This document shows positions 8,112-24,240 of a stretch of 42,724 nucleotides of DNA, piece by piece. The position numbers were made by a program, and so were the translations under genes. Positions within the stretch are counted from its first letter, which is position 1. Every line of letters begins with the position of its first letter. The DNA is from Negativicutes bacterium (GTDB taxonomy: Bacteria > Bacillota > Negativicutes > Anaeromusales > Anaeromusaceae), in assembly GCA_009929485.1 (NCBI GenBank), contig SAAJ01000027.1, positions 1 to 42,724 of the forward strand. The letters are read 5' to 3'. A model generated the notes under the pieces. It saw only the letters and a list, made by a program, of their open reading frames with translations. It was not told the origin of the DNA and made no database searches.

Positions 8112-9263
8112 TTACAAGGATGTTCCGATATGATGCACCGGTGTCCCTTCTACATCAAAACACAGCCTTGCCGTCCCTGGAAAAGCTGCAATTAATACCT
8201 TTTTTATTTCAGGCTCATCCTCATTAACGTACTGCTCTTCATCCAAAGAAATTAATTCGCCCGCTTCTAACGACTGGATAACAAACGGTGAGTGAGTAGT
8301 CGCTATAAACTGAACCTTGGGGAAAATTTTCTTCAAGTCTGCCACAACAAGGCGCTGCCATTTCGGGTGCAAGTGTAAGTCCAATTCGTCAATTAAAACC
8401 ACGCCAGGCGTCTCAAGGAGCGCTTGTTCCTTTAACTGCGGATTCAAGGTAGCCATGCGATACGCAATATCTACAATCAGACTCAACATGCACCGGTAGC
8501 CATCGCTAAGCTGGGCATAACTTATTTTCGTCTTATCCGGGAAGATAACAATAACTTCTGCGGACGCAATATCATAGTCTACGGTAATACCTGGCTGAAT
8601 ACGGCCTAAGCAGGTTTTCAGCGCTTGCATTACAGTATCAAATTCACCACTCTCCTCCGGATGCTTTTGTGCACGATGAGCCAACACATCCAGATACTCT
8701 AGGGTATCATTAATCGACTGTTCAAATTGCAACGATTTTGCATAGCCTTTTACTCTTATTTTTTGCTTCTTATACTGCTTGCTGCGTCGAATCGGCTCTG
8801 ACCACAAGCGAGCTGCACTATAATAGGCAACTACAGGCAAAATCAGATCCATATCATCTCGGCTATAAATACGCGCACTATACCCTTGCGTAATTTTATT
8901 AAGCTCACGCAATCCGCCATAAGTGGTATGTCCATTGATTTTATTCACGGACCGTTCCCACTCAACCATTTCTCCACGGATATCGGCCCGGCACTTAACA
9001 AGCACAGGAACTTGAGGTAACAATGCCGCAGACACTTTCGCTGCAACTTCCCGTATATCATTTTTTCTAAAATTCCGCTTATCCGCAGTCTCTAAACCGT
9101 CAAAACCATATATCCAGCCGCCTAATGCCACGCACAAGGCTTCTAAACATGCGGTCTTGCCTTTGCCGTTTTCCCCAACCAATACGGAAAACTGTTTTTT
9201 AAAATGAAATTCTCTTTCTGCAAATCCGCGAAAATTCTTCAAGTAAATATTTTTGATAAACAT
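8112..9263 (-). CDS. AAA ATPase (RecF/OLD-like) at the BREX 3' end
   Basis: A 383-residue ABC-type ATPase starting at ATG 9263, which has GGGGAGGAGGG just upstream; the open frame begins earlier but that part lacks a site. It has LKNFRGF, Walker A GENGKGKT (about 31-38), a signature-like LSDGYRCML, Walker B VVLIDELDLHLHP and a switch His in ATTHSPF. The coiled-coil region is short, as in RecF/AAA_21-type defence ATPases. There is no Toprim nuclease domain, and no HNH or other nuclease gene follows. It lies 35 bp after brxL, so it is likely cotranscribed with BREX as an accessory defence or repair gene. Confidence 0.85.
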   Translation of the reverse strand: MFIKNIYLKNFRGFAEREFHFKKQFSVLVGENGKGKTACLEALCVALGGWIYGFDGLETADKRNFRKNDIREVAAKVSAALLPQVPVLVKCRADIRGEMVEWERSVNKINGHTTYGGLRELNKITQGYSARIYSRDDMDLILPVVAYYSAARLWSEPIRRSKQYKKQKIRVKGYAKSLQFEQSINDTLEYLDVLAHRAQKHPEESGEFDTVMQALKTCLGRIQPGITVDYDIASAEVIVIFPDKTKISYAQLSDGYRCMLSLIVDIAYRMATLNPQLKEQALLETPGVVLIDELDLHLHPKWQRLVVADLKKIFPKVQFIATTHSPFVIQSLEAGELISLDEEQYVNEDEPEIKKVLIAAFPGTARLCFDVEGTPVHHIGTSL

Positions 9264-9298
9264 GCTATCCCTCCTCCCCTTAGGCCATTCGGTCTGCC

Positions 9299-11374
9299 TC
9301 ATTCCACTCCCAGCGCCTTAAACACTGCATCCTCAGCGCTCTGGTAGAAGATAATGTTAAAATGTCCGATCAGATCCGAAGGAACGGTCCCCAAGTCACC
9401 AGCAGACGTAATCGGCAGCAATACTTTTTTAGCGCCGCTGTCCAGACATACCTGCAAAGTATTAGCCAGTTCCTCGACTTTTTTTATCGTCCCGCCAATG
9501 CTCAAGTCCCCAAGCACTACCGCACTGCTGACAGTCGGTTTATTGAGTGCAACCGAGCAAATGGCCACCATAGCTGGCAGCGTCAGGTACTTCGTCATAC
9601 CAATGCCGTTTAAATCCTGCACATGCAACAAATAATCCTTGGTTGTCGTGCTAATGGAAGCGCTGATGTTTCTGGCATTGGCTTTTAGATAGCGATAGGC
9701 CGTATCGATGGCTTCTTTGGCTTCCCGATCAGAACCAATCCCTGTGCGCTCAAATTTTCCGTTCCCGCTGGTCATCTGCATTTCCAGCTTATATACCCCA
9801 ATCATGCCTGTTCGCCCATGAGAGATAGTATAAATATGACCTGGCTTGCCCATGCCTTCAGGAATCAGCTTGCCACCGCCCTGTTCCGGCACGGCTACAT
9901 ATTCTTCATTAAAAGTTTCGCTGTCAATATAGGAAAAATTCACATCGTAAAATTCCATACCGCCGATTTTTTTCAGCTGCTCTTTTACTCGGCGGCGCAT
10001 TTCAAGGGCAAAACGCAGTATTTCCTCGATGTTTTCCTTGGTAAATTGACCGTCCGGATAAATGAGTTTGACCAGTCCGGACACCGTTTTCTTGACGGCA
10101 ATCACATCCCTCTGGTTGAGATTGCTGCCCAGTTTAAAGTACTTTTCAATGGCGTCGGCATAGGAAATTTTCCGCAATTCCCGCATGACTTCTGAATAAT
10201 AGTCGGTAATAAAGCCAAAGCCGTCTGTAAAGTACTGCGGCCTATACTTGGGAATTTCCCAGCCCGGAATATAGCAGTGCATGCGATCCAAAAAAGCCGT
10301 ATCATTACCCATGGCTTCGGGAAAGGGCTCAAACAAATGGGAGGTTTTCAAAATCACATCCACACTCTGATTGATGTTTCCCACAAAGACCATCGAGGCA
10401 TAGGCGTTTTTCTCTTCCTTCCCTCTGGCAAACGAACCGGATGCCATATAGTCCTTCATAATCTGCACGCCGTCTTGATCCTTAAACTTAATCCCCGCCA
10501 CTTCGTCAAAGGCCACACAGTCCCAAAGGCCGACCAAGCCTACGGTTTTGCTGCTCATATTATAGAACAAATTGGCCACCGTAGTCTGACCGCCAGATAC
10601 CAAAATACTGTTGGGGCTGATTTCTTTATAGATATGGGATTTTCCTGTCCCCCTCGGCCCCAGCTCGCATAAATTATAATTGTTCTCAATCAAGGGGATC
10701 ATCCGCGCCAGGTGCAGCCATTTTACCCGTTTATCAAACTGGGACGGCTCCATGCCGGTGCTTCGCAGCACCAAGTCGATCCATTCTTCTTCGGTAAAGT
10801 TGGCTCTGGCGGTTTTTACTTCCTCCAGATCAAGACCAGGCATCTGAATGGGCGTTAAATTACGAACCATAAAGGGACACCCTGGCGCAGCCTCATCATA
10901 GTAGTACTCCATTTTGACAATGCACCAGATACCGCCGCATAACAGCCGCTCATAATCAGACACATAGTTTGAAGCCAAAGGCACTCCTTTTAAGCCCAGA
11001 TTGGAAAACTCAGCCTCATATATATCGTCCCGATAATTGAGTTTTACCGATACTTTATCAATAACCGTATAGCTGCCCCGTTCTCGCAGCTTGGAAATAA
11101 TCTTTTGAGCCTCATCCGGACGCACATAGTTTTCGGCCAGGATCTGCTTTACGTTTTGCACGCCCGCTTCGATTTCATCTTCCTGACGAGAAGAGCAATA
11201 CATGCCAAGAAGGTATTCCAGCACATACACCGGAACATTGGCGCCTTCCTTGATTTTTTTCGTCAAATCCTTGCGGACAATTTTCCCGGCAAAATACGTA
11301 TGCAGTTTTTCTGTCAGCGTCTCCGCCTGACTGTCATCAATGACGTTTACCGCAGCTTCTGCAAATTCGCTCAT
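9299..11374 (-). CDS. brxL: BREX Lon-like ATPase BrxL
   Basis: A 691-residue BrxL. Walker A GPRGTGKS lies at 239-246 and Walker B VAFDE at about 287-291, followed by the AAA core. The C-terminal part (PTVSSAVVLGDLSIGG, then GAKKVLLP) matches the Lon protease-like domain that defines the family. BrxL forms DNA-encircling multimers and is needed for phage exclusion in type 1 BREX. It follows pglZ by 12 bp on the same strand, the canonical end of the type 1 gene order. Length is normal for the family. Confidence 0.95.
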   Translation of the reverse strand: MSEFAEAAVNVIDDSQAETLTEKLHTYFAGKIVRKDLTKKIKEGANVPVYVLEYLLGMYCSSRQEDEIEAGVQNVKQILAENYVRPDEAQKIISKLRERGSYTVIDKVSVKLNYRDDIYEAEFSNLGLKGVPLASNYVSDYERLLCGGIWCIVKMEYYYDEAAPGCPFMVRNLTPIQMPGLDLEEVKTARANFTEEEWIDLVLRSTGMEPSQFDKRVKWLHLARMIPLIENNYNLCELGPRGTGKSHIYKEISPNSILVSGGQTTVANLFYNMSSKTVGLVGLWDCVAFDEVAGIKFKDQDGVQIMKDYMASGSFARGKEEKNAYASMVFVGNINQSVDVILKTSHLFEPFPEAMGNDTAFLDRMHCYIPGWEIPKYRPQYFTDGFGFITDYYSEVMRELRKISYADAIEKYFKLGSNLNQRDVIAVKKTVSGLVKLIYPDGQFTKENIEEILRFALEMRRRVKEQLKKIGGMEFYDVNFSYIDSETFNEEYVAVPEQGGGKLIPEGMGKPGHIYTISHGRTGMIGVYKLEMQMTSGNGKFERTGIGSDREAKEAIDTAYRYLKANARNISASISTTTKDYLLHVQDLNGIGMTKYLTLPAMVAICSVALNKPTVSSAVVLGDLSIGGTIKKVEELANTLQVCLDSGAKKVLLPITSAGDLGTVPSDLIGHFNIIFYQSAEDAVFKALGVE

Positions 11375-11386
11375 CAGAGCACCACC

Positions 11387-13909
11387 TTATACGTTAAATC
11401 CGAAGTCGTTGGCAAAGGCAATGTCCATCACGACTTCATGGCGCAACGCTTCTACGCCGTTTTTCGTGTCCAAGGCCACCAGGTAATAGCGCTTCGCCTT
11501 ATTGTACTGCTGATTTTTGAAGGTAAAACGCAGCCGGAAAATTCGTTTTTGCGGTTCAGCCTCTTTGCGGTCAGCCACATAGATGCATTCCCCGGAAATA
11601 GGATCTTGGTCTTCCGAGACAAAGAACAACCGGTATTCTGTCGCTTTTACCACGTCACTGACCGGCTCGGTTTGAATAAAATCAAGGGAAGCAATGAGAT
11701 TGGTGATCTTCTGCACCATACTCACCATCGCAATTTGCGCCGTGCGGGTTTCAGTATGGTATCTCTCCGTCCGCACATCCAGTACCGGTATCAGCATTTC
11801 CTGCGGCGACGAGCCGCCATGCACATAATTTTGGCCACCGCCGGGAACCTTAAACACTTGGGAGCCAATTGGAAAAGAGACGCTTCTTTCGTCGGCATTT
11901 CCCAACAGCCTACCCAAGGGAAGCGACGCTACGCCATCTTCTGCCAATGGAGACGAGGAAATGATAAAACGGCGGTTCACAAAATTGCCTTTTCCGGCAA
12001 TACCGCTAATCTTATCGCTTTCTGTCAGCTTATCGCGCTTATAGATAAAGCCGTGATCGGCAGTCACAATAAAATGATAGGTATTGGCGCTGCCTGACAG
12101 CCGTTTGATTAAATCATAGATTTCCCCTACCGCTTCTTCGCACGCATGAAAGACCTCATCTTCCGTGTTGGCTTTGTCGCCACGGGCATCAATCTGGTTA
12201 TGGTACACATAGACCACATCCATACCGGTAAAGAGCTGCCGCAAATCAGCCCGTTTCATCGTCTTTAGCTCGTCAAACTGCACACAACGACTGCTGGGAT
12301 TGTAGCTTTGCAAAATTGCTTCCCGCTGCTTCAAATCCTCGCAAGGAAGACCATCTGCCAACACCTTGAAGTCTCCGGTAAGTTCCAACATCTTATGCGG
12401 CAACAGCGCCGCCATGCCCAGCCGCGTATAGGACGGCAAAATGCCGACCATAGCCTCCAATTTCACCGTACACTGCGCATCGTCCTGCAATTTTTGATGC
12501 AGATAGCTTCCGGCCTCATAGCGCAAAGCATCTGAAATAATGACAACAACTTTATCCTTGCTGCCTTCCACATAACGCGAGAAAAACTTGCGCTGCAGCG
12601 GCAGTGCCTGCGGCCATGGTTCTTCACAAAAAGCTGCGTTCCAATGAGGCAGCGCCTTTGCCAAGTACTCATTCGTATATATATTTTCCACCAAATCCCG
12701 CAGTTTTTCATACTCTGCCGTTTCAGCCAGCTGGCTATAGGCATAGTAGAACTCCCGGTAATACCGATCCAGTTGATAATCCCTTGTCCGATACTGTTTT
12801 ATAATGCCCTCTAAGTCAGCCGGACAGGAATAATTGGCTGCCCCAATCAAATAAAATGCGCTTGCCAGCATCTGATACTGCCCTGCAACAGCCGCTCCGA
12901 AATGCTTTTTGCGTCGATATTCGCAAAGCGCCGGTATATCAAGACCATTCAGCTTAGCGCCAACATTTTCATTTAATAAGCGTTCCGTAATCCACCGCAG
13001 GAAAAAGACATCCACCACGGCAAAGGTATCGCAATCCAGCAGTTCTTCGGCTTCATACGTTTCAAGCACAGCCACCGCCTTAAGGGTTGACGCCATCATG
13101 TCCGAAATAGCATCATACCGCTCCCGATAGAGGATGTTATTCATCAGATTATCCAAAAAAGCAATGCAGTTGCCTGTCTTATACGAAACAAAGCTGCGCC
13201 AGCTTACCGGCTGTTCGCCTTTCAAAAAGCGGACTGTATACGTCACAAACAACGTCACGACAAATTTTTCTAACGTCGGCTCACTGTCGCTATAGCCGAA
13301 TTGTTCTTCACACAGCCGCCAAAAAGCAGACAACAAATCGTACTTGGCCAGCTCCGCCAAGTACTTATTTTCTTCAAAATCGTCTTCCGTCAAAACCACG
13401 CGCAGCACTTCTTCAAAAGAAGCCGTGCGGGTTTTGCAAAGAACGCTCATAATAGCAACTTCAATGCTTTCTTGGGTGAAGTTTTCAAGCTCCAGGTCGT
13501 AGAACTTTTGTGTCCGCTCTTTCGCTCCAAAAAACTTAATATGCTTCTGGATAAGAGGCTTAAACTTTTCATCGATGCCTAAGTCTACCGCCAACAGTGA
13601 CGCACGATCCGCAAAGAACTGCTTTGAATACAGCAGCATATCTTCCAAGTGGTTCTCCCGCACAGACGGCTTCGGGAACGGCGCATACACCAGATAGCTT
13701 GTTTCCGGTTCCACGCGCTCTAAGAAATACTTGGTATAAAACTGGTTGTCTTGCTGCAAATGATACACCTTCGCCCCAACCAGCTCCAAAGTATCAACAT
13801 CCTCAGCAAACTCGGCGTTTTCATCGTACCAGAAAACCAGCTTCCGGGTATCGGCGGCAAACTCGGCATTTAGTTTGTCGGTTATTTGCTTTAAGTTCAA
13901 TTCAGCCAT
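11387..13909 (-). CDS. pglZ: BREX type 1 alkaline-phosphatase-like PglZ
   Basis: An 840-residue PglZ of the BREX-1 type. The alkaline phosphatase-superfamily core shows VVVIISDALRYEAG near residues 455-465 (metal and nucleophile region) and TADHGFIYKRD near 615-625 (metal ligands D and H). PglZ is the BREX signature protein and works with PglX in site-specific methylation and defence. AAAGGGG precedes the ATG. It lies between a repeat-filled spacer upstream and brxL downstream, separated from pglX by an inserted ATPase/nuclease pair. Confidence 0.95.
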   Translation of the reverse strand: MAELNLKQITDKLNAEFAADTRKLVFWYDENAEFAEDVDTLELVGAKVYHLQQDNQFYTKYFLERVEPETSYLVYAPFPKPSVRENHLEDMLLYSKQFFADRASLLAVDLGIDEKFKPLIQKHIKFFGAKERTQKFYDLELENFTQESIEVAIMSVLCKTRTASFEEVLRVVLTEDDFEENKYLAELAKYDLLSAFWRLCEEQFGYSDSEPTLEKFVVTLFVTYTVRFLKGEQPVSWRSFVSYKTGNCIAFLDNLMNNILYRERYDAISDMMASTLKAVAVLETYEAEELLDCDTFAVVDVFFLRWITERLLNENVGAKLNGLDIPALCEYRRKKHFGAAVAGQYQMLASAFYLIGAANYSCPADLEGIIKQYRTRDYQLDRYYREFYYAYSQLAETAEYEKLRDLVENIYTNEYLAKALPHWNAAFCEEPWPQALPLQRKFFSRYVEGSKDKVVVIISDALRYEAGSYLHQKLQDDAQCTVKLEAMVGILPSYTRLGMAALLPHKMLELTGDFKVLADGLPCEDLKQREAILQSYNPSSRCVQFDELKTMKRADLRQLFTGMDVVYVYHNQIDARGDKANTEDEVFHACEEAVGEIYDLIKRLSGSANTYHFIVTADHGFIYKRDKLTESDKISGIAGKGNFVNRRFIISSSPLAEDGVASLPLGRLLGNADERSVSFPIGSQVFKVPGGGQNYVHGGSSPQEMLIPVLDVRTERYHTETRTAQIAMVSMVQKITNLIASLDFIQTEPVSDVVKATEYRLFFVSEDQDPISGECIYVADRKEAEPQKRIFRLRFTFKNQQYNKAKRYYLVALDTKNGVEALRHEVVMDIAFANDFGFNV

Positions 13910-13923
13910 ATCTTACCCCTTTA

Positions 13924-14000
13924 CAGGTGATAGTTGCATTGGGAAGTAGGAAGTTACAGTAGGCAGTTGCCGTAGGAAGACGCAAGTTGGAAGTTGCATC
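13924..14000. repeat. Low-complexity repeat array A, pglZ upstream spacer
   Basis: About 75 bp of imperfect short units such as GGAAGTAGGAAGTTACAG, AGGCAGTTGCC and AAGTTGGAAGTTGC. It fills nearly the whole gap between the pglZ start and the 168-residue gene, and is the same sequence type as array B at 15556-15718. Confidence 0.8.
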
Positions 14001-14001
14001 T

Positions 14002-14508
14002 TCAATTGACGACTTTTACCTCACGAACCAAATTATACTTTTTAGCCAGCTCTTCATTCATCACTACGACTTCGCTTTTCCAAATTTGTCGATGAGCAAA
14101 AATATTCGCTTCCAGTGCATCTTTAATGGGCGATAGCCACTCGATTTGATGACCATTAATAATGAGAATAAACTTATAGCTTGCCTGGCTGTTATCAGAG
14201 GATCCAACCTTTCCCGGGATTGAATACTTTGGGTGTCTTCCTATCGCCGCAGACAAGTATAAGGCAAAGGAATGCAAAAACTTTTCAGATATTTCGTTGA
14301 TAAATCCCCAAAAATCTTTTTGGTTACCTGGCTGCGGAGAACTTGATTTTGCTTCAACAAAGTCAAGACGACTCTCTTCTAAGGAAGCAATAAATTCTAC
14401 CGTTTTAATGCCCTCTCCCACACTAGCATGCAATTCTGATCCTTCCATTAGAAAGACCCGTTCCTCCTCAAACTCAAAAACCATGTTCGATTCCGTTATT
14501 CTTTTCAT
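14002..14508 (-). CDS. Putative PD-(D/E)XK-like partner of the adjacent ATPase
   Basis: A 168-residue protein I do not recognise by family. It has a short RLDFVEAKSSSP segment near residues 47-58, where D, then E-x-K, at the end of a hydrophobic strand fits the core of PD-(D/E)XK nucleases; earlier glutamates could complete the site. The ATG overlaps the stop of the upstream ATPase gene (ATGA), so the two are translationally coupled and likely form one complex. The pair interrupts the usual pglX-pglZ junction. An ATPase-plus-nuclease defence module is my inference; the motif alone is weak. Confidence 0.6.
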   Translation of the reverse strand: MKRITESNMVFEFEEERVFLMEGSELHASVGEGIKTVEFIASLEESRLDFVEAKSSSPQPGNQKDFWGFINEISEKFLHSFALYLSAAIGRHPKYSIPGKVGSSDNSQASYKFILIINGHQIEWLSPIKDALEANIFAHRQIWKSEVVVMNEELAKKYNLVREVKVVN

Positions 14509-15533
14509 TCCGTCATAGCCCTTCCCACTTCTTCTTCGTAAAGCTGAATAAAGGTATCACGAATATCATTCTTTTCTAAGTCTTTAAAACGTCCACTACT
14601 TTCGCACTTTACACCGCTCTCGGTTTTATATAAGGAATGAAATTGAATGGTTGTATCCTTCTTTGCTTTAACATCAAAATACTTAGACAGAATATAATCA
14701 TGGGTGGCAATAAACACTTGCACACCGCTTTCCTGCAATTCCAGCAGCATCTCCACAATCAACGGGATGTGGATCGGATTAAGATTGGCTTCCGGTTCAT
14801 CCCAGAACAATACGGCTCCTTTTTCAAGAGTTCCGTTTTTCATCAATTGCCACAGCAACGCAATCTTCCGAATGCCTTCCGCAACTAAATTAAACTCCAC
14901 CTTCGAACTTCCGTGTTTTAAATAAAATCGATCTTTTTCCCCATTAAAGAACACTTTTCCTTCTATGATCCGCTCAAGACGCCGCAGTTGCTGCACCTTG
15001 CTTTGCGGATCTTTGCCTGCCGATATATCCACTTTAGCTGAGTGGATAACATCAAGATAGGTGTCATCAAATTCAATATTATTTTTTTCCGCCGCTGAAA
15101 TCAGATTATACGAATTCGACAAGATCTCTTTGGCCGGAATGAACGTACTTTTCAGATTGTTTAATTTACTTTCCCAGCTTGCTTCGTTCGTTACTTCCGC
15201 ATCCCACTTCTTAGTTTTCGTATGAAAATTTGCAGATATAATTTTTGTCGCTCCATTTACACCTGCAAAAATTTTCACCTCAGCCGTTCCTGCTCCCTGC
15301 TTACGGGTAATCAAACGACTAATACGAAAATCATCAGGTTGAAACGTCCGTACAATTTTTTGTGAGAAAGACACCTTCGGATCGACAGCTTGACATGCCG
15401 AATAAATCAACTTCATCAGATGTGTTTTTCCGGTCCCGTTTTCACCAATAAAAACATTAATCCCTTCACAAAAGTTAATCTCTGCCTCTTCAAATACTGT
15501 AAAGTTATTGAGTTGGACTTTCTTGATTGGCAT
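14505..15533 (-). CDS. AAA ATPase (AAA_21/OLD-like) inserted in BREX operon
   Basis: A 342-residue ABC-type ATPase from ATG 15533 (MPIKKVQLNNFTVF), with AAGGGGGG just upstream. The frame continues upstream into repeat array B, which gives a spurious N-terminus. Walker A GENGTGKTH lies near residues 29-37, Walker B VLFWDEPEANLNP near 250, and the switch His in ATHDY. A short coiled-coil middle and no Toprim domain fit AAA_21-type defence ATPases that act with a separate effector. The next gene overlaps it by 4 bp and may be that effector. Confidence 0.85.
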   Translation of the reverse strand: MPIKKVQLNNFTVFEEAEINFCEGINVFIGENGTGKTHLMKLIYSACQAVDPKVSFSQKIVRTFQPDDFRISRLITRKQGAGTAEVKIFAGVNGATKIISANFHTKTKKWDAEVTNEASWESKLNNLKSTFIPAKEILSNSYNLISAAEKNNIEFDDTYLDVIHSAKVDISAGKDPQSKVQQLRRLERIIEGKVFFNGEKDRFYLKHGSSKVEFNLVAEGIRKIALLWQLMKNGTLEKGAVLFWDEPEANLNPIHIPLIVEMLLELQESGVQVFIATHDYILSKYFDVKAKKDTTIQFHSLYKTESGVKCESSGRFKDLEKNDIRDTFIQLYEEEVGRAMTE

Positions 15534-15555
15534 TCCGAATGCCCCCCTTTTGTTG

Positions 15556-15718
15556 TAAGTGGCAGTAGGCAGTGGGAAGTTGCAGGGGGAAGTCACAGTA
15601 GGAATCTGCCCGCTTCCTTCTTCAACTTATAGCTTCAACTGCCTTCTTCCATCTTCCGTCTTCCTTCTTCAACTTACCGCTTCAACTTACCTCTTCAACT
15701 GCCGTCTGCCGTCTTCAA
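15556..15718. repeat. Low-complexity repeat array B with orientation switch
   Basis: About 160 bp of imperfect short units. From 15556 to about 15602 they are purine-rich on the plus strand (GGCAGTAGGCAGTGGGAAG). From about 15610 to 15718 they are the reverse complement type (CTTCCTTCTTCAACTT). The two halves could pair into a long imperfect hairpin. The array runs directly up to the pglX stop codon at 15719-15721. Confidence 0.8.
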
Positions 15719-18700
15719 CTAAATCTTCGCCAGCACTTCCAGCTTCTTACCATCTGTACCGATCTGAACCTTTTCATAATTCACTTTTACCCCATCATCG
15801 AGGTCAATGGCAATACGCGCCAGCGCCAGATGGGCTATCTTTTCATCGTAATCCTTCGTTTCTTGCAGCTGCTTAGTCAGCTTGTCCTTGCGCTTTTCCG
15901 CCATTACCACTTCGCGGGCATTTGTGCTGTTGTCGATGGTTTCCTGCATCCGGACAATTTCGCGTTCGTAGACACGCTGCATCTTGTGTAGATAGTCAAT
16001 ACGTAAATTGCCGATGGTGTTTTCGTCATAACGGTGCATGTAAATCAGGGCCTTAAACCCATTGGCCTTACCGCTGTCAAAGAGCCAGTAAATCGGGCGC
16101 TTTTGGTATATCTTGCAGTGGTCCTTGAAGAAATCTTTGAGGAAGTAGTTGCGGATAATATCCCGAGCAGTATCGCCCTTGCTGCCTAACGCCCTGGCAA
16201 TAAAGTCGAGGTTTTCTTCGAGTTTTTCCACGCCATATACTTTTTTGACAAAAGCAACGAAAAGACCGACGATGTCATCTTCAAAATATTCCTCATCGGT
16301 AATGGGAATAATATTATCCTTATCAGGGATGAATGTGCTGTATTTACTGTCATCCCATTGTCCACCAGCATAGACAAGTCCGTCTTCATCAAGACTGTAG
16401 CGACCAAACATACAGCCAACGGCATACGAAATAAAGCTACGAATATCACGACCTAAATCTGCTTTACGGATAGTTACGTCTTTATCTTCTACGTCTGGAG
16501 TGAGTTCATCTTGGAGACCATAGATTTCGATGAAGATGCGGTTCAATTCTTCTTCATTACTTTTCAATTGAACAAATTGCATCTCAGATAATTGTTGCCA
16601 CTGTACATAACTTTCAGTAATAGAGTTTTCACCACATAGCAATAAATGCTTTTTAAAATCCCATGATGTCTCGAAAAGGTCCCACTCGTTCCGAGATAAA
16701 CGGATATTATCATGTACAATTCTATCAACATCTATCTTCTTATTTTTATTAAATAATATGGGCAATCGTGCAATATCACCGGCTTGAAAATTAATCGTAG
16801 GAGCAAGAACCTGCAGCATTTCCAACGCAATTAGCGTATTGCAATATCCCAATAAATAGAATACATTTTCTTTTGACGTATAAAATGACATTCCAGCAAT
16901 ATCTGAAAGGTTACATAATTTTAGTCTAAACGATGGTTTTACTGACGAAATTAAAGACCAAGAAACAGAGAGTGTAAACTTTAAATCTAAAGGATAATCT
17001 TGTACATTACGCCCGTCAGCTTTTGCACAATTGAAAATCTCATTTCCACTATTTTCCCAATTAACTACATAATCATTATTTCCATACCATTTTCTGAAAT
17101 CCCCTCCTTTGTTATAAGGGAACCATTTAGCGCTTGACTGTATTGCTTCATTTGCGTCTTTTGCTGATAAATTAGTTTTATTACTCGAAACTTCCCACCA
17201 TAGACGTAAAAATCTGCCATTATCTCCTGTTTTCATCCCGTTCCTGGCAGTAGCTAAATTACCAAGCAGCACCCCTTCTTTAAATGCCTTAATAAAATTG
17301 TAACTTAATGAAAAAACAAGAGGTGTTCCAGGAATCGAATGAAATTCACTATTTTTTTTTGCAAAACAGTCATTAGCGTCTTTCTTACGCAAAAAGACTT
17401 TGTTCTTATCATCTGTCACACGTCCGGTATTCAAATCAAAGTATATCCCGTTATACTCTTTGATCGTGGAATTACGGATAACAAAAGAGCAAGCATGCGC
17501 CACTTGTGAATTCATTTCAGGAAAGCTATTAAAACCTATTTTAAGTAGATTAACAATCCTCTTTTGGAGAATCTCTTCTCTTAAATCTTCAAAGCTCGTT
17601 AAAAACATCCACGACTGCATTGTGATCATAGCTTGATAGCCATTTTTTTTTGCCATTTGCCCACATTTTTTGATGAAAACTGCATACAAATCTGCCTTAG
17701 CATTAGGATAATTATCTTTAACATATTTATTAGTTTTAGGTTCTGAGTTTGTCATTGCCATATACGGCGGATTAGTCACTACCACGTCATATTTTCTCGC
17801 CAACACAGCGCCAATTTCTACCAACAAATACAATTGAGATTGGGTATCGTCCACGCCAACCATATCAAAGGATAACTGTCCGGTCAAATCCAGCTTATCA
17901 ACAAACTGGCGCAGCAGTTCCCAATCATAGCTGTCCACGTTCAAGATGGAGCCGTATTCCTTGGCGTCAATAAAGGTATCCAGCAAACCTTGTATTTGCA
18001 GCAGCGCCACATTGCGCTGCATTTCGTCCATGCCAGCACCGAAGTATTGCATTTGGTCACGATTGATGCCGTTGCTTTCTTGAATAGCATATACGTGCAG
18101 CTTGGTCTCGCCGTTCAAAATGCGGCGATTATACTGTCGCGCCTTCATCATCAGGGCAAAATAGGCAAGCTGATAAGCACGATTATCAATATCAAGTCCA
18201 AAAATATTGTTTTCTATAATGCTCTTAGCAGCATCGCGCTGACTGTAGCCGCAGCTTTCATAGATCTGCATCAATACGTCAAAAGCATATACCAAAATAT
18301 GACCGCTTCCCATGCAAGGATCTATGATTTTCACATTTTCAATGTGAAAATCAGTGTAGAGAGTTAAGAGTTGAGAGTTTAGTTGCTTGCGAACCTCTGG
18401 CTCTTGTTCAGCTTCGGTCAGATAGTATTTCCAGCCCATTTTATCTGCAATATTTTTTTCTTTTGCTATCCGTTCTTGTTCGCTTAACTCTAACCCCTTC
18501 AAACTCCACTCAATGAAAATCCTCCCCAGAGAATTTTCGACCATATACCGCACGATCCAATCGGGAGTAAACAGCTGCGTAGCGGCAGGAATGCGTTCTT
18601 TAGTAATTTTGACGTTCTTCTTTAATAGCGCAAAGGTTTCATCCTTGGGCTCTGTGTTGTAGTACTGATAAAGCCAGCCAATGATCTCTACCTGGCCGCT

Positions 18701-19513
18701 TGGAGCCTCTTCTTCTATCAATTCACCGCGCTTGATAGCCTCTTCGTCCGCTTCGGTTCTAATTTTGAAGTCCTCTTCCGGAAGATCATGTACCAGATGA
18801 TACACTACGCCTTCTTTATCGGTAAAGGCCACATTCAGAAGAAGCTCGGTATAGTCGCTGGTCTTTTCAAACAGATTGGGAAGAATGGCATTGAGCGCAT
18901 TGCACTGCTTAATAAAGAGCAGTCGAAAAAGCTCATCCAGCAGATTTGCCTGCTTCAGCTGCATAATGCGGTCTTTTTCATACGGAGTAAACTCAAGGTC
19001 TGTGTCAAAGGGATTGGTCACCAAGTCCGGTTCGTCTTTGCCTGCGCTTTCTGAGGAAATCACGCGTACGCGCGAAGGAATATATTCGTTAACCTCCATA
19101 AAACGCACAGCAATTAAACGGTTAAACCAAGTATAAGCTACTTCTTCCACAACAGCTTTAAAAGCAATGTTGAGAGTTGAGAGTTCAGAGTTGAAAGATA
19201 AGAGTTCAGGTTTGAGAGTTGAGAGTTCAGAATCTAAACTCTTATACCTGCTCCCTAAACTCTCAGTTCTAAGCTCTAAACACTTAACCCTAATTTTCTC
19301 CGCTAAGGCTTCGCGTTGTTTAATTTCAACGCCGGAAATAGAATACGGCTCTTTCGTGCCGATATCAAAAAACTGCACGTCCTTTGTCGATTGCGGCAAA
19401 GGTTCTTTTATTTCTTTTTCGGAAATGCCAAGCAGTCCCGCCTTATATGTGATATCGGCAATCAATTTATTTCTGGCCCATATGGCAAAGTTCTTAATGG
19501 CGCTTTTGTTCAT
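15719..19513 (-). CDS. pglX: BREX type 1 adenine-specific methyltransferase PglX
   Basis: A protein of about 1264 residues. The ATG at 19513 is preferred over 19522 because AGGGGGAG is about 10 nt from it. Motif I DPCMGSGH lies near 396-403 and the N6-adenine motif NPPY near 577-580; YTWFNRLIAVRFME (about 127-140) is typical of PglX. It methylates host DNA at the BREX site, and phage lacking the mark is blocked. Two segments are repeat-encoded and unlike PglX: residues about 77-115 (LELRTESLGS, SELSTL twice) and about 375-386 (QLNSQLLTL). They lie between, not within, catalytic motifs. The frame is intact, so function is plausible. Confidence 0.95.
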   Translation of the reverse strand: MNKSAIKNFAIWARNKLIADITYKAGLLGISEKEIKEPLPQSTKDVQFFDIGTKEPYSISGVEIKQREALAEKIRVKCLELRTESLGSRYKSLDSELSTLKPELLSFNSELSTLNIAFKAVVEEVAYTWFNRLIAVRFMEVNEYIPSRVRVISSESAGKDEPDLVTNPFDTDLEFTPYEKDRIMQLKQANLLDELFRLLFIKQCNALNAILPNLFEKTSDYTELLLNVAFTDKEGVVYHLVHDLPEEDFKIRTEADEEAIKRGELIEEEAPSGQVEIIGWLYQYYNTEPKDETFALLKKNVKITKERIPAATQLFTPDWIVRYMVENSLGRIFIEWSLKGLELSEQERIAKEKNIADKMGWKYYLTEAEQEPEVRKQLNSQLLTLYTDFHIENVKIIDPCMGSGHILVYAFDVLMQIYESCGYSQRDAAKSIIENNIFGLDIDNRAYQLAYFALMMKARQYNRRILNGETKLHVYAIQESNGINRDQMQYFGAGMDEMQRNVALLQIQGLLDTFIDAKEYGSILNVDSYDWELLRQFVDKLDLTGQLSFDMVGVDDTQSQLYLLVEIGAVLARKYDVVVTNPPYMAMTNSEPKTNKYVKDNYPNAKADLYAVFIKKCGQMAKKNGYQAMITMQSWMFLTSFEDLREEILQKRIVNLLKIGFNSFPEMNSQVAHACSFVIRNSTIKEYNGIYFDLNTGRVTDDKNKVFLRKKDANDCFAKKNSEFHSIPGTPLVFSLSYNFIKAFKEGVLLGNLATARNGMKTGDNGRFLRLWWEVSSNKTNLSAKDANEAIQSSAKWFPYNKGGDFRKWYGNNDYVVNWENSGNEIFNCAKADGRNVQDYPLDLKFTLSVSWSLISSVKPSFRLKLCNLSDIAGMSFYTSKENVFYLLGYCNTLIALEMLQVLAPTINFQAGDIARLPILFNKNKKIDVDRIVHDNIRLSRNEWDLFETSWDFKKHLLLCGENSITESYVQWQQLSEMQFVQLKSNEEELNRIFIEIYGLQDELTPDVEDKDVTIRKADLGRDIRSFISYAVGCMFGRYSLDEDGLVYAGGQWDDSKYSTFIPDKDNIIPITDEEYFEDDIVGLFVAFVKKVYGVEKLEENLDFIARALGSKGDTARDIIRNYFLKDFFKDHCKIYQKRPIYWLFDSGKANGFKALIYMHRYDENTIGNLRIDYLHKMQRVYEREIVRMQETIDNSTNAREVVMAEKRKDKLTKQLQETKDYDEKIAHLALARIAIDLDDGVKVNYEKVQIGTDGKKLEVLAKI
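18355..18388. repeat. Repeat-derived segment C inside pglX
   Basis: A short run of GAGAGTTAAGAGTTGAGAG type units in frame within pglX, encoding QLNSQLLTL just before the methyltransferase motif I. It is the same unit family as arrays D, E and F. Short, so chance similarity cannot be excluded. Confidence 0.6.
19168..19288. repeat. Repeat-derived segment D inside pglX, with orientation switch
   Basis: About 120 bp inside pglX made of units such as GAGAGTTGAGAGTTCAG (19172-19230) that change to the reverse type (CTAAACTCT, CTCTCAGTTCTAAG) after about 19233. In frame it encodes alternating SELSTL-like residues at PglX positions about 77-115. The two halves are largely complementary. Confidence 0.8.
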
Positions 19514-19530
19514 CAGTCGCATGCTCCCCC

Positions 19531-20021
19531 TTAGTTTTAGAGTTGAGATTTTAGAGTTTAGAGTTAAGAGTCAAAGATTGAGGGTTTAGTTGCAAAGAGA
19601 CAGTTTTAGTAGTAGCTGTTAACATTTTCCTCAATTCGAGACAGTCCGTTGTGATTGATTCAAATTCAGCTTGGCTTAAATAATCCGTTTCATAGAGGAT
19701 TTCCAACCAATATTGCGTTTCCGCACATTCTTTCAAGGCAATATATACCTTGGCTAAAAAGTCTTTTTTAGAGCTGCCGCATCCAGCCTCAGCTAAATTT
19801 GCACCAATACTCGTACCCGAACGCAAAAGCTGTTTCGACAATACATATTCTTTTTTCTCATCGCATAAATACTTATAAAGCCTCACGATTCGCACTGCAA
19901 AATGCTTACTCTTAGATCTCGCCGTATTTTCATTTTCCATAGGTCTCACCCTTCAGCCAACCTAATTTATCTAATCTCTTATCTCTAAACTCTGTCCTCT
20001 AAACTCTGCCCTTAAAACTCA
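19531..20021. mobile_element. Candidate repeat-flanked four-helix-bundle unit
   Basis: A four-helix-bundle gene is bracketed by arrays E (19531-19592; TTTTAGAGTTTAGAG type) and F (19964-20021; CTCTAAACTCTGTCCTC type), which are in opposite orientation and so form imperfect terminal inverted repeats; AGAGTTTAGAG occurs in E and, reverse-complemented, in F. The unit sits between brxC and pglX, genes that are normally adjacent. No transposase or clear target-site duplication is visible. Calling it mobile is inference from structure. Confidence 0.5.
19551..19940 (-). CDS. Four-helix-bundle protein (S23/TIGR02436 family)
   Basis: A 129-residue protein from ATG 19940, with GAAGGGTG about 9 nt before it. 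The sequence KHFAVRIVRLYKYL, then SKQLLRSGTSIGANLAEA, KDFLAKVYIALKECAET and WLEILYETDYL, is the hallmark of the family first known from intervening sequences of 23S rRNA genes and related to Avd of diversity-generating retroelements. Family members bind nucleic acid or pentamerize; their role as free genes is unknown. The last residues (LNPQSLTLNSKL) and the stop codon come from repeat array E. It is not a BREX component. Confidence 0.9.
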   Translation of the reverse strand: MENENTARSKSKHFAVRIVRLYKYLCDEKKEYVLSKQLLRSGTSIGANLAEAGCGSSKKDFLAKVYIALKECAETQYWLEILYETDYLSQAEFESITTDCLELRKMLTATTKTVSLQLNPQSLTLNSKL

Positions 20022-23000
20022 ATATTAACCACAGTATCTTCTTCCAGTTCGCCCAAAATCCGCTCGCGCAGCGAAGCCAGGTGCTTATCTACGTCCTGGG
20101 CCGATTCAATCTGCCAGGAAGCGGCCACATTGACGGTTTTGATGCTGATGTTCTTGCGTTTTTTGATTTTTGGCGCTGGTATAGGTGACTGCTCTGGTTT
20201 GTCATAACCGGTTTTTCCTTCTGCAACGACCTTCGCTTTTTCTAGTTCCAGTACGATTTGTTTATCTTTATTGTCAATTTCGGTTAACAAGCGTAGTTTC
20301 AGAGCATCGGCTTCTACTTTTATATTTTGCAAAACCGCTACGTTATTGCACCTGTCCGCTTTAGCGCGAATCTCGTCAAAGAGCTGTAAAAATCTTGGGG
20401 TCAGCTCATTTTTATAGCTCTTGCTTCCAAGCTTTTCAAACACTCTGCTTCTGGCATCTTCAATGGCATGCAAAACAGGCTCTTCCATACTCTGGAGAAC
20501 CTTTAAATAGGCATTATTAAAGCGGTCTAGCAGTTCCGGCAGCTTAGGAATATCCTTATAGGGAGCTTCTTTGTGCAAGATGCTCTTAATCGCAGCAACC
20601 GCAGTTTCTACTTCTTCGTCAACAATAAAGGTCTTGCTATCATCATAGATATGCATACTTTTTAGCGCATCTTCAAAGATTTTCTTTTGCTCTCCTGCAA
20701 AAAAGGCTTTTACCGGCTCATAGTCATCGGCGAACTCAAGATAGTCGTCGCGGTCTGTATGGATTTTCTTGAAAAATTCCATCGGCCCTTGCAGTTGGAT
20801 AACGGCGCGCAAAAGAGCTTTCCCGTTGGCAACGGTCTTTTTCCCTGGCAAAGCCGCAGCTTTCTGCTGAATCTCGATTTTTTCCAGATCCGTGAGCAGC
20901 GTTTGTCCGTAGGTCTGAAAGGACTTCATCATCGCGTCGTCTTCGTCGTTGATGCTGGAGACGCCAAAGAGCTCCTTCATAACCTCCCGAACGCTTTTTT
21001 TCTGACTGTCATTGGCTTTTTCACGGCGCTCGGTGAGCAGTTTTTCCACATACTCTTTCTTGGTCAGATAACGAATAATTTCTTCTTCACTCTTATTCAT
21101 AAGAGTAACGCTGCTGCCGCTGACAGTAAGGGCTATATCGCCATTTTTAAAGAGTTTGGCCACCAGCCACTCTACATCGTCTTCCACAAAGCCGTAGGGC
21201 GCTTTCATGAAACGATCCAGCAGGCTCTTCATGGACGTTTTGAGGTGCGAAATCGAATTGGCAGAAATATGGCTTTGCATATCGTTTAGGGCATGTACAT
21301 TCGCAGGAGTATCGCCATCTAGATTCAATACCTGCTGCGACGAGTGTCTAAACAAGTCGCGGATGTTGGCTTCGCTCATGGCCACGTCAATATAGCTTAG
21401 CTTATGATACACAGTTGAAACCAAACGCCCTAAGGCGTCATTGATTCTGGCGGCTGCGTCCTTACTGGATATTTGCGCCTTATCGCCATTTACATAGATA
21501 TCCGCCTCTTTCATAGCTTCTTGCAAAAACAACTTGGCATTGGCGCTGCGTTCGCGCATTTCAACCCGCTTGGCTTCTTTAATGGTTTCAAATTTAGTCA
21601 GTGTTTTGGAAGTAGTAAGGCGCAGGTACTTTTCAATTTTTAAGGCGCTGCGCAGTTCATCAATAAAAACGGTGTCCTTAGGCAAAACAACCAGCACTTC
21701 CTGTTGCTGCCCGGACAGCATGCGCAGCGTCATTTCATCATCGCCGTACTCGGATTTTGGCGTCAGTATATGCACGCCGATAGCATGGTTTTGGTTGGCC
21801 TTATAGGGACGGTCGTCAACCACCTGGTTAAAGGAAAAGTTGTAGCGTCCGTTAAACGACGGATAGCGATATTTTTTATCGGTAAAAATATCCTCAAAAA
21901 TCAGCTCCGACAGTTTACCCAGCACTTCGCCCATTTCCACGTTCTGATTTTCGATTTCCCGGTTAATTTCCTGCTCTTCATCAGTCAGGAAAACATAGAC
22001 GTCGCCATTCTTTTGCACCAAAGTCTGACGCACAAGTACCTTTAAGGCTTCTTCCACTTTCTTTTTTAGGTCGATGCGGTCTGCGTCAATATCGTCAATC
22101 ATCAGACTGGTGATATTATCAAGATTGGCAGTGATCTCTTTGACATATTTAATCATAAACAGGGTCTTTAGTACGTTTATCGCAAAGCAGTCTTCTTCCC
22201 TGTCCGGATTGATATAATCGTTTTCCCCGGCCCGGATAATGACGCCTTTGTGGCTATGATCCAGAAATTGATGCAAGGCGTCGTAAAAGACATTGAACGG
22301 AATCACCGCGCCGGTTTCCTTATGCATCAGTTTCATGGCTGATTCTTTAAAAAGGGCAATCATGGAGCGTTCCCCTTCGGACAAATGCTTGCCCGAGGCC
22401 CCATGCGTACGAATGGACGTCAAAACGCTTGCCAGCAGGTTGAACTGATACGGCACAAACGGATACACCGCCGCAAAATCTTGTTCATCCCCATAGAGTT
22501 TTTTATCAATGCCATCATTAAAGACAATCAGGTTTTTGATAATGGTGGCTTTTTGCTCATATAATAGCCGCAGGGTTTGCTCAGGAGTGGGTTTTTTAGC
22601 CAAAATCCTTTTTTTAATGACTTCATCGACATTGGCCGAAGACAGCGACAAACGGGTGTCAAAACGCCCCTGAATTTTGGAGAAGTCATTGCTCCGCAGC
22701 CCCATATCTTTGGCGATGGCGTCAATATCCTGCTGACTGGTAACAACAACCCATGCCTTGCCTTGGCAAGCAGTGCCAAGGTCTTCGGTCACTGTTTGCA
22801 GGTTCAGCATGAGTTTGGTATCGTCCCCTATGTACTGGCCAATTTCATCCACCAGGAACACCACGTGATGATTGTTGCCTTTACGGTCAATATACTCCTT
22901 TACCAGTTTGGCAAAGTCTTCAATACTGATGGTATAGGTCTCTGTCGCTTTTTCGCACCAGTTGCGGGCCGCCGCCTCGCTCATGAACTCCATAGCTGCA

Positions 23001-23644
23001 AGAACGTCCACAATGGCGTCTTGAATAAAATCAAACTTATGCCGGGACTGCTCCCAAGGCTTGCCGAAATCGTCGGCAAATTTTTCTTTGAATTCCTCAT
23101 AGCGCCCAGCTTCCGTCAGGGTGCGCTCCAAATCCGCCAAAAATGGAATCGAACCGCAGAAGCCCTGCATTTCGTTGAATACTTTTAAAAACACCGACAC
23201 AATGGCGTCTTTAGACTGCTTGCCGGTCATTTCGCTTTTGGAGTCAATATTAAAGAGAACGACATCGGTCTGAGGCGCAATACTGGCAGCCAAGCGCATA
23301 TCCGCCAGCACCATGGCATCGTCAATCTTATGGTCTTCAGTAAAATAATCTAAGGCTTTTTTGCCGTTTACCTCTTTATTTTCGAGCAGGTACGACAAAA
23401 TTTTCAGGAAGTGGGATTTACCACTGCCAAAGAAGCCGGAGATCCAAACGCCCATCTTATCGGTATGCCCGTTAATCCCCCGTTTATAGCTACTGAAAAA
23501 CTCGGCAAAATGCTTGCGGAGTTCCCGCGTAACCACGTACTCCTCCAGCTCTTGACGAATATTTTCATCGTCTCCCTGACCTACCTTAATAACGCCTTTA
23601 ATATCACGGTCAATCTCTTTGGCAAACAGTTCTTTTAGTATCAT
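20012..23644 (-). CDS. brxC: BREX P-loop ATPase BrxC
   Basis: A protein of about 1210 residues. The preferred start is ATG 23644 with AAGGAG about 9 nt upstream; a TTG at 23662 overlapping the brxB stop is the alternative. Walker A GFFGSGKS lies near residues 70-77, and Walker B VVFLVDEIGQY near 270-280. BrxC/PglY is the large ATPase of BREX, required for defence and methylation. Long helical regions follow the ATPase core, and a basic linker (PKIKKRKNI) lies near the C-terminus. The stop codon falls at the edge of repeat array F, whose GAGTTT supplies the final two codons. Confidence 0.95.
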   Translation of the reverse strand: MILKELFAKEIDRDIKGVIKVGQGDDENIRQELEEYVVTRELRKHFAEFFSSYKRGINGHTDKMGVWISGFFGSGKSHFLKILSYLLENKEVNGKKALDYFTEDHKIDDAMVLADMRLAASIAPQTDVVLFNIDSKSEMTGKQSKDAIVSVFLKVFNEMQGFCGSIPFLADLERTLTEAGRYEEFKEKFADDFGKPWEQSRHKFDFIQDAIVDVLAAMEFMSEAAARNWCEKATETYTISIEDFAKLVKEYIDRKGNNHHVVFLVDEIGQYIGDDTKLMLNLQTVTEDLGTACQGKAWVVVTSQQDIDAIAKDMGLRSNDFSKIQGRFDTRLSLSSANVDEVIKKRILAKKPTPEQTLRLLYEQKATIIKNLIVFNDGIDKKLYGDEQDFAAVYPFVPYQFNLLASVLTSIRTHGASGKHLSEGERSMIALFKESAMKLMHKETGAVIPFNVFYDALHQFLDHSHKGVIIRAGENDYINPDREEDCFAINVLKTLFMIKYVKEITANLDNITSLMIDDIDADRIDLKKKVEEALKVLVRQTLVQKNGDVYVFLTDEEQEINREIENQNVEMGEVLGKLSELIFEDIFTDKKYRYPSFNGRYNFSFNQVVDDRPYKANQNHAIGVHILTPKSEYGDDEMTLRMLSGQQQEVLVVLPKDTVFIDELRSALKIEKYLRLTTSKTLTKFETIKEAKRVEMRERSANAKLFLQEAMKEADIYVNGDKAQISSKDAAARINDALGRLVSTVYHKLSYIDVAMSEANIRDLFRHSSQQVLNLDGDTPANVHALNDMQSHISANSISHLKTSMKSLLDRFMKAPYGFVEDDVEWLVAKLFKNGDIALTVSGSSVTLMNKSEEEIIRYLTKKEYVEKLLTERREKANDSQKKSVREVMKELFGVSSINDEDDAMMKSFQTYGQTLLTDLEKIEIQQKAAALPGKKTVANGKALLRAVIQLQGPMEFFKKIHTDRDDYLEFADDYEPVKAFFAGEQKKIFEDALKSMHIYDDSKTFIVDEEVETAVAAIKSILHKEAPYKDIPKLPELLDRFNNAYLKVLQSMEEPVLHAIEDARSRVFEKLGSKSYKNELTPRFLQLFDEIRAKADRCNNVAVLQNIKVEADALKLRLLTEIDNKDKQIVLELEKAKVVAEGKTGYDKPEQSPIPAPKIKKRKNISIKTVNVAASWQIESAQDVDKHLASLRERILGELEEDTVVNIEF

Positions 23645-23658
23645 TCGCTTCCACTCCT

Positions 23659-24240
23659 TCAATCTACGAGCCGAAAGGCCCGATAATAGTTGTCGTCTTT
23701 AATGGAGCCAAACAAAACCAACTCTTGTCCATCGTATTTCCCCGGATAAAACATGACTACAGGCACACGGTCCATCGCCTGGTGCAGATTGTTAAGCACC
23801 TTATGAGAGCGCAACAAGGGATAGCATTTCCCAATGCCTGTCAAGAAAACTACCGCCTCTTGAGGCGTGCGCTCTTGAATGTACTTCACAATCAAACTAT
23901 CGTCATCGTTAATTCGTAGCAGGTTCCCCACAGCTTTTACAATGCGATCCATCCCTTTTTTCTTTTCAAACTGCACGCATTGCTCCAAAAAGCCTTCTGC
24001 TTCCAACAAATCAACCAGAATATCATAGAGGTCAAACACCAACAGCTCAAAGCCGTCACTCCCCTTGCTATTCTTGGACTTCATATAGTGCACACGTTCG
24101 CGTACAAGAAGCTCTTGCTGCGCCGGATAGTCAAACACATAATAGCCGACTTCATTTCCCAACCCCTTGTTTTCGCGAAACTCGGGACGCTTAATCAGCT
24201 GCTCCACCGCATCCAGCCGTTCTTCTAAGGTGGTCATCAT
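23659..24240 (-). CDS. brxB: BREX protein BrxB (DUF1788)
   Basis: A 193-residue BrxB. Typical segments are the start LEERLDAVEQLIKRPEF, YYVFDYPAQQELLVRERV and the C-terminal PVVMFYPGKYDGQELVLFG. The family (DUF1788) is a core type 1 BREX component of unknown enzymology, needed for defence. It begins with ATGATG overlapping the brxA stop by 4 bp, with AGGAG upstream, and its stop nearly abuts brxC, so translation is coupled. Length is normal. Confidence 0.95.
   Translation of the reverse strand: MMTTLEERLDAVEQLIKRPEFRENKGLGNEVGYYVFDYPAQQELLVRERVHYMKSKNSKGSDGFELLVFDLYDILVDLLEAEGFLEQCVQFEKKKGMDRIVKAVGNLLRINDDDSLIVKYIQERTPQEAVVFLTGIGKCYPLLRSHKVLNNLHQAMDRVPVVMFYPGKYDGQELVLFGSIKDDNYYRAFRLVD

Follow-up and report, generated by a model that had tools for sequence, protein, structure and literature searches.

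Inverted arrays of a seven-nucleotide repeat around an S23 gene and within the reading frame of the neighbouring BREX methyltransferase gene pglX

We know of no accepted explanation for the heptamer arrays that are scattered through bacterial genomes. Among the described cases are the arrays of the Beggiatoaceae (TAACTGA), one orientation of which is translatable (PMC4679880), and those of Xanthomonas and Nostoc (GGGAATC; PMC4692102). The structures of S23 (23S rRNA-IVP) proteins have been solved and no function is known for them (PMC4990558), and S23 genes have been noted within cas loci (PMC3936711). Here we describe an S23 gene bordered by heptamer arrays in a window of 42,724 nucleotides (the whole stretch of DNA analysed) from a Negativicutes bacterium, together with a related array inside the adjacent gene pglX. 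Linking S23 genes with heptamers places both in a testable setting, in which the gene for a small protein usually has inverted 7-mer arrays of its own on its flanks. This association outweighs the pglX insertion in importance, the in-frame arrays being occasional by-products; the pglX case illustrates that arrays can add protein sequence to a conserved enzyme and leave its frame unbroken. We found no literature linking S23 genes to heptamer arrays in open-licence papers, and we do not claim priority.

The locus shares with the intervening sequences (IVS) of 23S rRNA (PF05635, TIGR02436; Coxiella, PMC4990558) the protein family, the inverted ends that base-pair in RNA and an insertion that does not destroy the host gene, and some of the S23 loci surveyed below do lie in 23S rRNA. 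It differs from them in that the S23 unit lies in a protein operon, ends in 7-mer arrays and apparently has an arm-only copy in an open reading frame. The Rickettsia palindromic elements (RPE; PMC10969869) are also palindromic repeats that lie in frame in protein genes and are translated, but their sequence and peptide are conserved across many genes of one genome, whereas the arrays described here are local (1.65 kb) and only the 7-nt period is common between lineages. The heptamers of Beggiatoaceae and Xanthomonas/Nostoc are likewise tandem 7-nt units and mostly intergenic; unlike the present ones they occur genome-wide, with one sequence per organism, and no S23 link has been reported for them. 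A miniature inverted-repeat transposable element (MITE) would similarly be short, have inverted ends and be the cargo-less relative of a gene-bearing unit, but the present unit has neither a transposase parent nor a dispersed set of genome copies, and no target duplication is recognisable against relatives this diverged.

The gene pglX (15719-19522, minus strand) encodes a BREX-1 adenine methyltransferase of 1267 aa as called, which resembles the solved PglX/BrxX structures 8c45 and 9ewz and matches the NCBIfam model BREX_1_MTaseX (NF033452) over nearly its whole length, scoring 1378 bits (cut-off 500). Its frame is open throughout, with no internal stop, and the methyltransferase motifs DPCMGSGH and NPPY are present; by homology, the true start is probably the ATG at 19513 (M4). 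The locus has the complete gene order of BREX type 1, namely brxA, brxB, brxC, pglX, pglZ and brxL, with brxC at 20012-23662 on the minus strand (NF033441).

Residues 78-118 of PglX are encoded by an array of degenerate 7-nt units lying head-to-tail (19168-19290, minus strand), which was detected by TRF and as inverted repeats and is absent from 26 homologues and from the relatives G522 and G530. On the plus strand, GAGTTGA/GAGTTCA units extend to 19231 and are followed by a reverse-complement half from 19232 to 19290. As pglX reads (minus strand), the first half (19232-19290) corresponds to the upstream arm of the S23 unit described below, with GTTTAGA-like units, and the second (19168-19231) to its downstream arm, with TCTCAAC-like units. 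At 19169-19231, TRF reported units of 7 nt (9 copies) and of 21 nt, and the array reached a lag-7 score of 26/35, while that of block-shuffled windows (n=100) never exceeded 23. A 7-nt repeat translates into a 7-residue repeat whichever frame is used, so that an array free of stops encodes a periodic peptide; the second half encodes SELSTLK-PELLSFN-SELSTLN. The two halves are predicted to pair in a strong hairpin (-45.5 kcal/mol, z -4.3). Sequence, TRF, inverted repeats and shuffles all agree with the sequence-only reading, which had placed an array with a central switch of orientation at about 19168-19288 within the pglX frame. A CRISPR array was rejected on account of the head-to-tail 7-nt units without spacers, and a reading in terms of phase variation was considered and set aside.

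Two shorter tracts lie farther into pglX, both on the minus strand. One, of upstream type, was found as an inverted repeat at residues about 337-350 (18474-18511), in a loop that is longer than that of G522; the other, of downstream type, was found by pattern match at residues about 380-390 (18353-18382, QLNSQLLTL) and brings no net gain in length. This smaller inverted pair (18345-18520) showed no excess RNA folding (z -0.1). A search of the 3.2-Mb genome for AGAGTTN repeated four times, with at most 3 mismatches, gave 8 matches, all at 18353-20007 of this contig (C100; about 1.65 kb); the reversed pattern, which served as the control, gave 4, counted without their places. Five other contigs, sampled over 247 kb, had no lag-7 arrays of any sequence (at least 23/35). 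In this genome, the 7-mer family was found only around the S23 gene, a connection that the sequence-only reading had not noted.

The S23 gene (19551-19949, minus strand; 132 codons) lies between brxC and pglX and is the sole copy in the genome. Its product is a four-helix-bundle protein of the 23S rRNA-IVP family (PF05635, 2e-30; TIGR02436, 3e-33; PDB 2rld), with a PF05635 score of 105.6 bits that places it well within the family (cut-off 33.8). The gene is bordered by two 7-mer arms on the minus strand, both seen by TRF and the lag test: an upstream arm (19966-20011) directly 3' of the brxC stop, and a downstream arm (19533-19590) that doubles as the C-terminal coding sequence of S23. Both consist of the same 7-mer as the pglX array, are in opposite orientation to each other and pair in the predicted RNA fold (z -3.8); the unit lies about 250 nt upstream of the pglX array. 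In five relatives (G116, G380, G229, G522 and G530) there is no S23 gene and brxC stops about 15-30 nt before pglX. Judging from these empty sites, the S23 unit is an insertion in the brxC-pglX spacer, where both the stop codon of brxC and the ribosome-binding site of pglX were preserved. An Rfam scan of 13800-20200 found no known RNA family, and the unit does not lie in an rRNA gene. The last 13-15 residues of S23 (about SLQLNPQSLTLNSKL) come from codons within its own arm (19551-19590), and the open frame that precedes the pglX start also crosses this downstream arm.

Alignment of PglX with homologues of the same phylum (36-76% identity in the N-terminal part) showed a gap at residues 81-119 in 26 of 26, as had been expected of an insertion, and among these 26 no orthologue sharing the residues without the DNA repeat was seen. 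Among pglX genes with an open frame, that of G522 is the nearest (67% identity, rising to 85% over the first 80 residues); its linker reads VIR-NKEQQFDYLT-AYKAVIEEVAYTW; in the window it reads KIR-[41 residues]-AFKAVVEEVAYTW. Compared with G522, about 123 nt stand in place of about 30 nt of native linker, which lengthens the gene by 93 nt net and the protein by 31 aa with the frame kept. In most other PglX proteins the linker has about 2 residues, so that the net gain is about 39. The earlier estimate of about 39 added residues thus suits the PglX proteins with shorter linkers, but against the closest relatives the difference is a net 31, with 41 residues in place of 10. Likewise, the proposed insertion without a break in the frame agrees with the intact 1267-aa frame and the gap in the relatives, but it was not a clean insertion, the native linker having been replaced as well. 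The array insertion is known from one genome only; G522 and G530 have empty sites for both the S23 unit and the array, and G116 and G380 for the S23 unit. No target-site duplication is recognisable at the pglX array, where the relatives are too far diverged and the native linker is replaced. These comparisons support the view of the pglX array as an in-frame addition. In G530 (L182) the N-terminal frame of pglX is interrupted, with an open frame of 132 aa.

To model the protein, we used AlphaFold2 on residues 1-480 of PglX with 27 sequences; the NPPY motif lies outside this segment. The model had a mean pLDDT of 83 and a pTM of 0.85, with a TM-score of 0.7 to solved BrxX/PglX structures. In it, the helix 65-93 extends into the insert, residues 93-109 have a pLDDT below 50 and the helix 110-144 begins within the insert; on this basis, the insert is predicted to form a flexible tip on a pre-existing helical hairpin. 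This low-confidence tip within an otherwise mostly confident fold agrees with the extra loop or coil that the sequence-only reading had expected. It is plausible that the array is harmless to PglX.

S23 genes of other genomes were surveyed in two samples, one of 51 loci of the same subfamily (50 of them scored) from Clostridia, Bacteroidota, Spirochaetes, Campylobacterota and others, and one of 30 loci from a phylum sample. An array was scored where the lag-7 score was at least 20/35 within the 220-nt flanks, on at least one side. Flanks with a 7-nt period were found at 47/50 and 23/30 S23 genes, respectively, against at most 9/50 and 7/30 for the other lags (4-13) and 4-7% for control segments elsewhere in the loci. 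The arms are inverted within a locus, and a locus's own arm pair ranked first in 16 of 30. In a stricter comparison, heptads were present in 31 of 44 S23-adjacent gaps versus 28 of 100 other intergenic gaps (odds ratio 6.1, p 3e-6). Because 28 of the 100 gaps away from S23 carry heptads, the link between S23 and heptads is an enrichment, with heptads occurring away from S23 in those genomes too. The heptad varies by lineage (GAGTTTA, GGAATTA, GAGTGTG, TTATGAA and others), and the S23 gene is co-directional with both neighbours in 57/78 cases. Despite the family name, only 2 of the 37 loci scanned with Rfam lie in 23S rRNA. S23 genes with 7-nt-period flanks inside 23S rRNA were seen at L135, L137, L056 and L066, and such examples link the heptad-flanked S23 genes with the classical intervening sequence. 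Near-identical S23 copies within a genome were discarded as proof of transposition, because the duplicated segments extend beyond the gene (they are rRNA operons in G116 and G056), and no movement of S23 units was observed. We tentatively propose, at somewhat less than even odds, that S23 genes with inverted 7-mer arms form a widespread, undescribed class of elements that includes the classical 23S rRNA intervening sequence as a special case. Within this class, the heptad would change from lineage to lineage at a constant period of seven, and the arms would be copied gene-less into nearby genes, sometimes in frame.

That repeat arrays can be translated, as suggested from the window, is borne out in other genomes. 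In-frame arrays were found in a DegT aminotransferase (L049; net +28 residues compared with PDB 7b0d), in a UDP-glucose dehydrogenase (Ugd; L125; +4 and +7 residues compared with PDB 3pid) and in a PlsC-like acyltransferase (L113; insert outside the PDB alignment), and probably in a type III Mod methyltransferase (L084; array outside the PDB alignment); these arrays resemble the arms of their local S23. Two other PglX lineages have differing heptads in the loops of the window's short tracts, AGTGGGC in G201/G298 and CCACTCC in G207. The PglX loops at residues about 340 and 385 thus carry lineage-specific heptad tracts (window 18345-18520; L073 9158; L033). Most arrays are intergenic, and translation is therefore the exception that survives. 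The 21-nt superperiod was rejected as a mark of coding selection, being clear in L113 only (0.80 at lag 21 versus 0.68 at lag 7) and weak or absent elsewhere; the open reading frames over arrays in L126 and L047 were dismissed as spurious (translated repeat or antisense frame).

Because the pglX array keeps the arm order of the adjacent S23 unit without its gene, we favour the interpretation, with a probability of roughly 0.6, that it is an arm-only (cargo-less) derivative of that unit. The parent would consist of an upstream 7-mer arm, the S23 gene and a reverse-complement 7-mer arm, located after the brxC stop and ahead of the pglX ribosome-binding site. A gene-less copy of both arms, upstream-type followed by downstream-type, would then have replaced the linker of about 30 nt, adding 93 nt net. 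Its survival would be due to a preserved frame, the lack of an in-frame stop and the position of the residues at the turn between two long helices, where they would extend the helical hairpin. We infer the S23 unit as source, the route of arm copying, the exposed tip and a working PglX. The pglX array resembles the S23 arms at the level of the 7-mer consensus only, and so the direction of copying cannot be read from it. S23 may also be a frequent companion of heptads rather than their source, since heptads are common away from it (28/100 gaps). On such grounds, and as heptamer arrays are known in genomes with no mention of S23 (PMC4679880, PMC4692102), one could suppose that heptad arrays form a general repeat class with its own mode of spreading (e.g. 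slippage or recombination between arrays), that S23 merely sits among them and that the pglX array came from neighbouring arrays with no role for S23. We consider this unlikely in view of the confinement of the 7-mer family here to the S23 neighbourhood, the strong enrichment in S23-adjacent gaps and the arms that are inverted and matched within the locus (16/30).

Replication slippage in place, from a short native pglX sequence and independently of the S23 unit, would explain the tandem 7-nt and 21-nt periods, but it yields direct repeats and would leave the inverted second half unexplained; in addition, the 7-mer occurs outside pglX and the relatives' linker holds no seed sequence, which leaves this origin highly improbable. 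The strength of the predicted hairpin, together with the cleavage by RNase III of the stem of the S23-bearing Coxiella IVS (PMC4990558), might instead point to a regulatory RNA structure in the pglX message, kept for tuning the expression or processing of the methyltransferase. However, the array occurs in one genome only, cleavage within the open reading frame would destroy the message and the other inverted pair in pglX lacks excess folding, and we regard such a role as very unlikely. Least probable of all is an assembly fault or a decaying gene, in which the array would be artefactual or pglX non-functional. The genome is indeed a draft (134 contigs, 4.4% contamination), repeats are easily misassembled and the relative G530 has a broken pglX frame; against this stand the intact frame with its catalytic motifs, a net change that is a multiple of 3 and the independent in-frame arrays in other genomes. 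An arm-only derivative of the S23 unit thus remains our preferred origin of the array.

Other parts of the BREX locus also carry additional genes. Between pglX and pglZ lies a HEC-02A/HEC-02B defence pair (14505-15596 and 14002-14508), flanked by a second, distinct family of inverted 13/7-nt arrays (13932-13993 and 15557-15714), of which no further copies were found elsewhere in the genome. Relatives carry differing extra genes at the brxC-pglX and pglX-pglZ junctions (L068 5454-6358; L073 6654-8343; L069 9533-10252), and for this reason both junctions look like hot spots of insertion. A gene for a PtuA-like AAA ATPase (8112-9302) directly follows brxL on the same strand.
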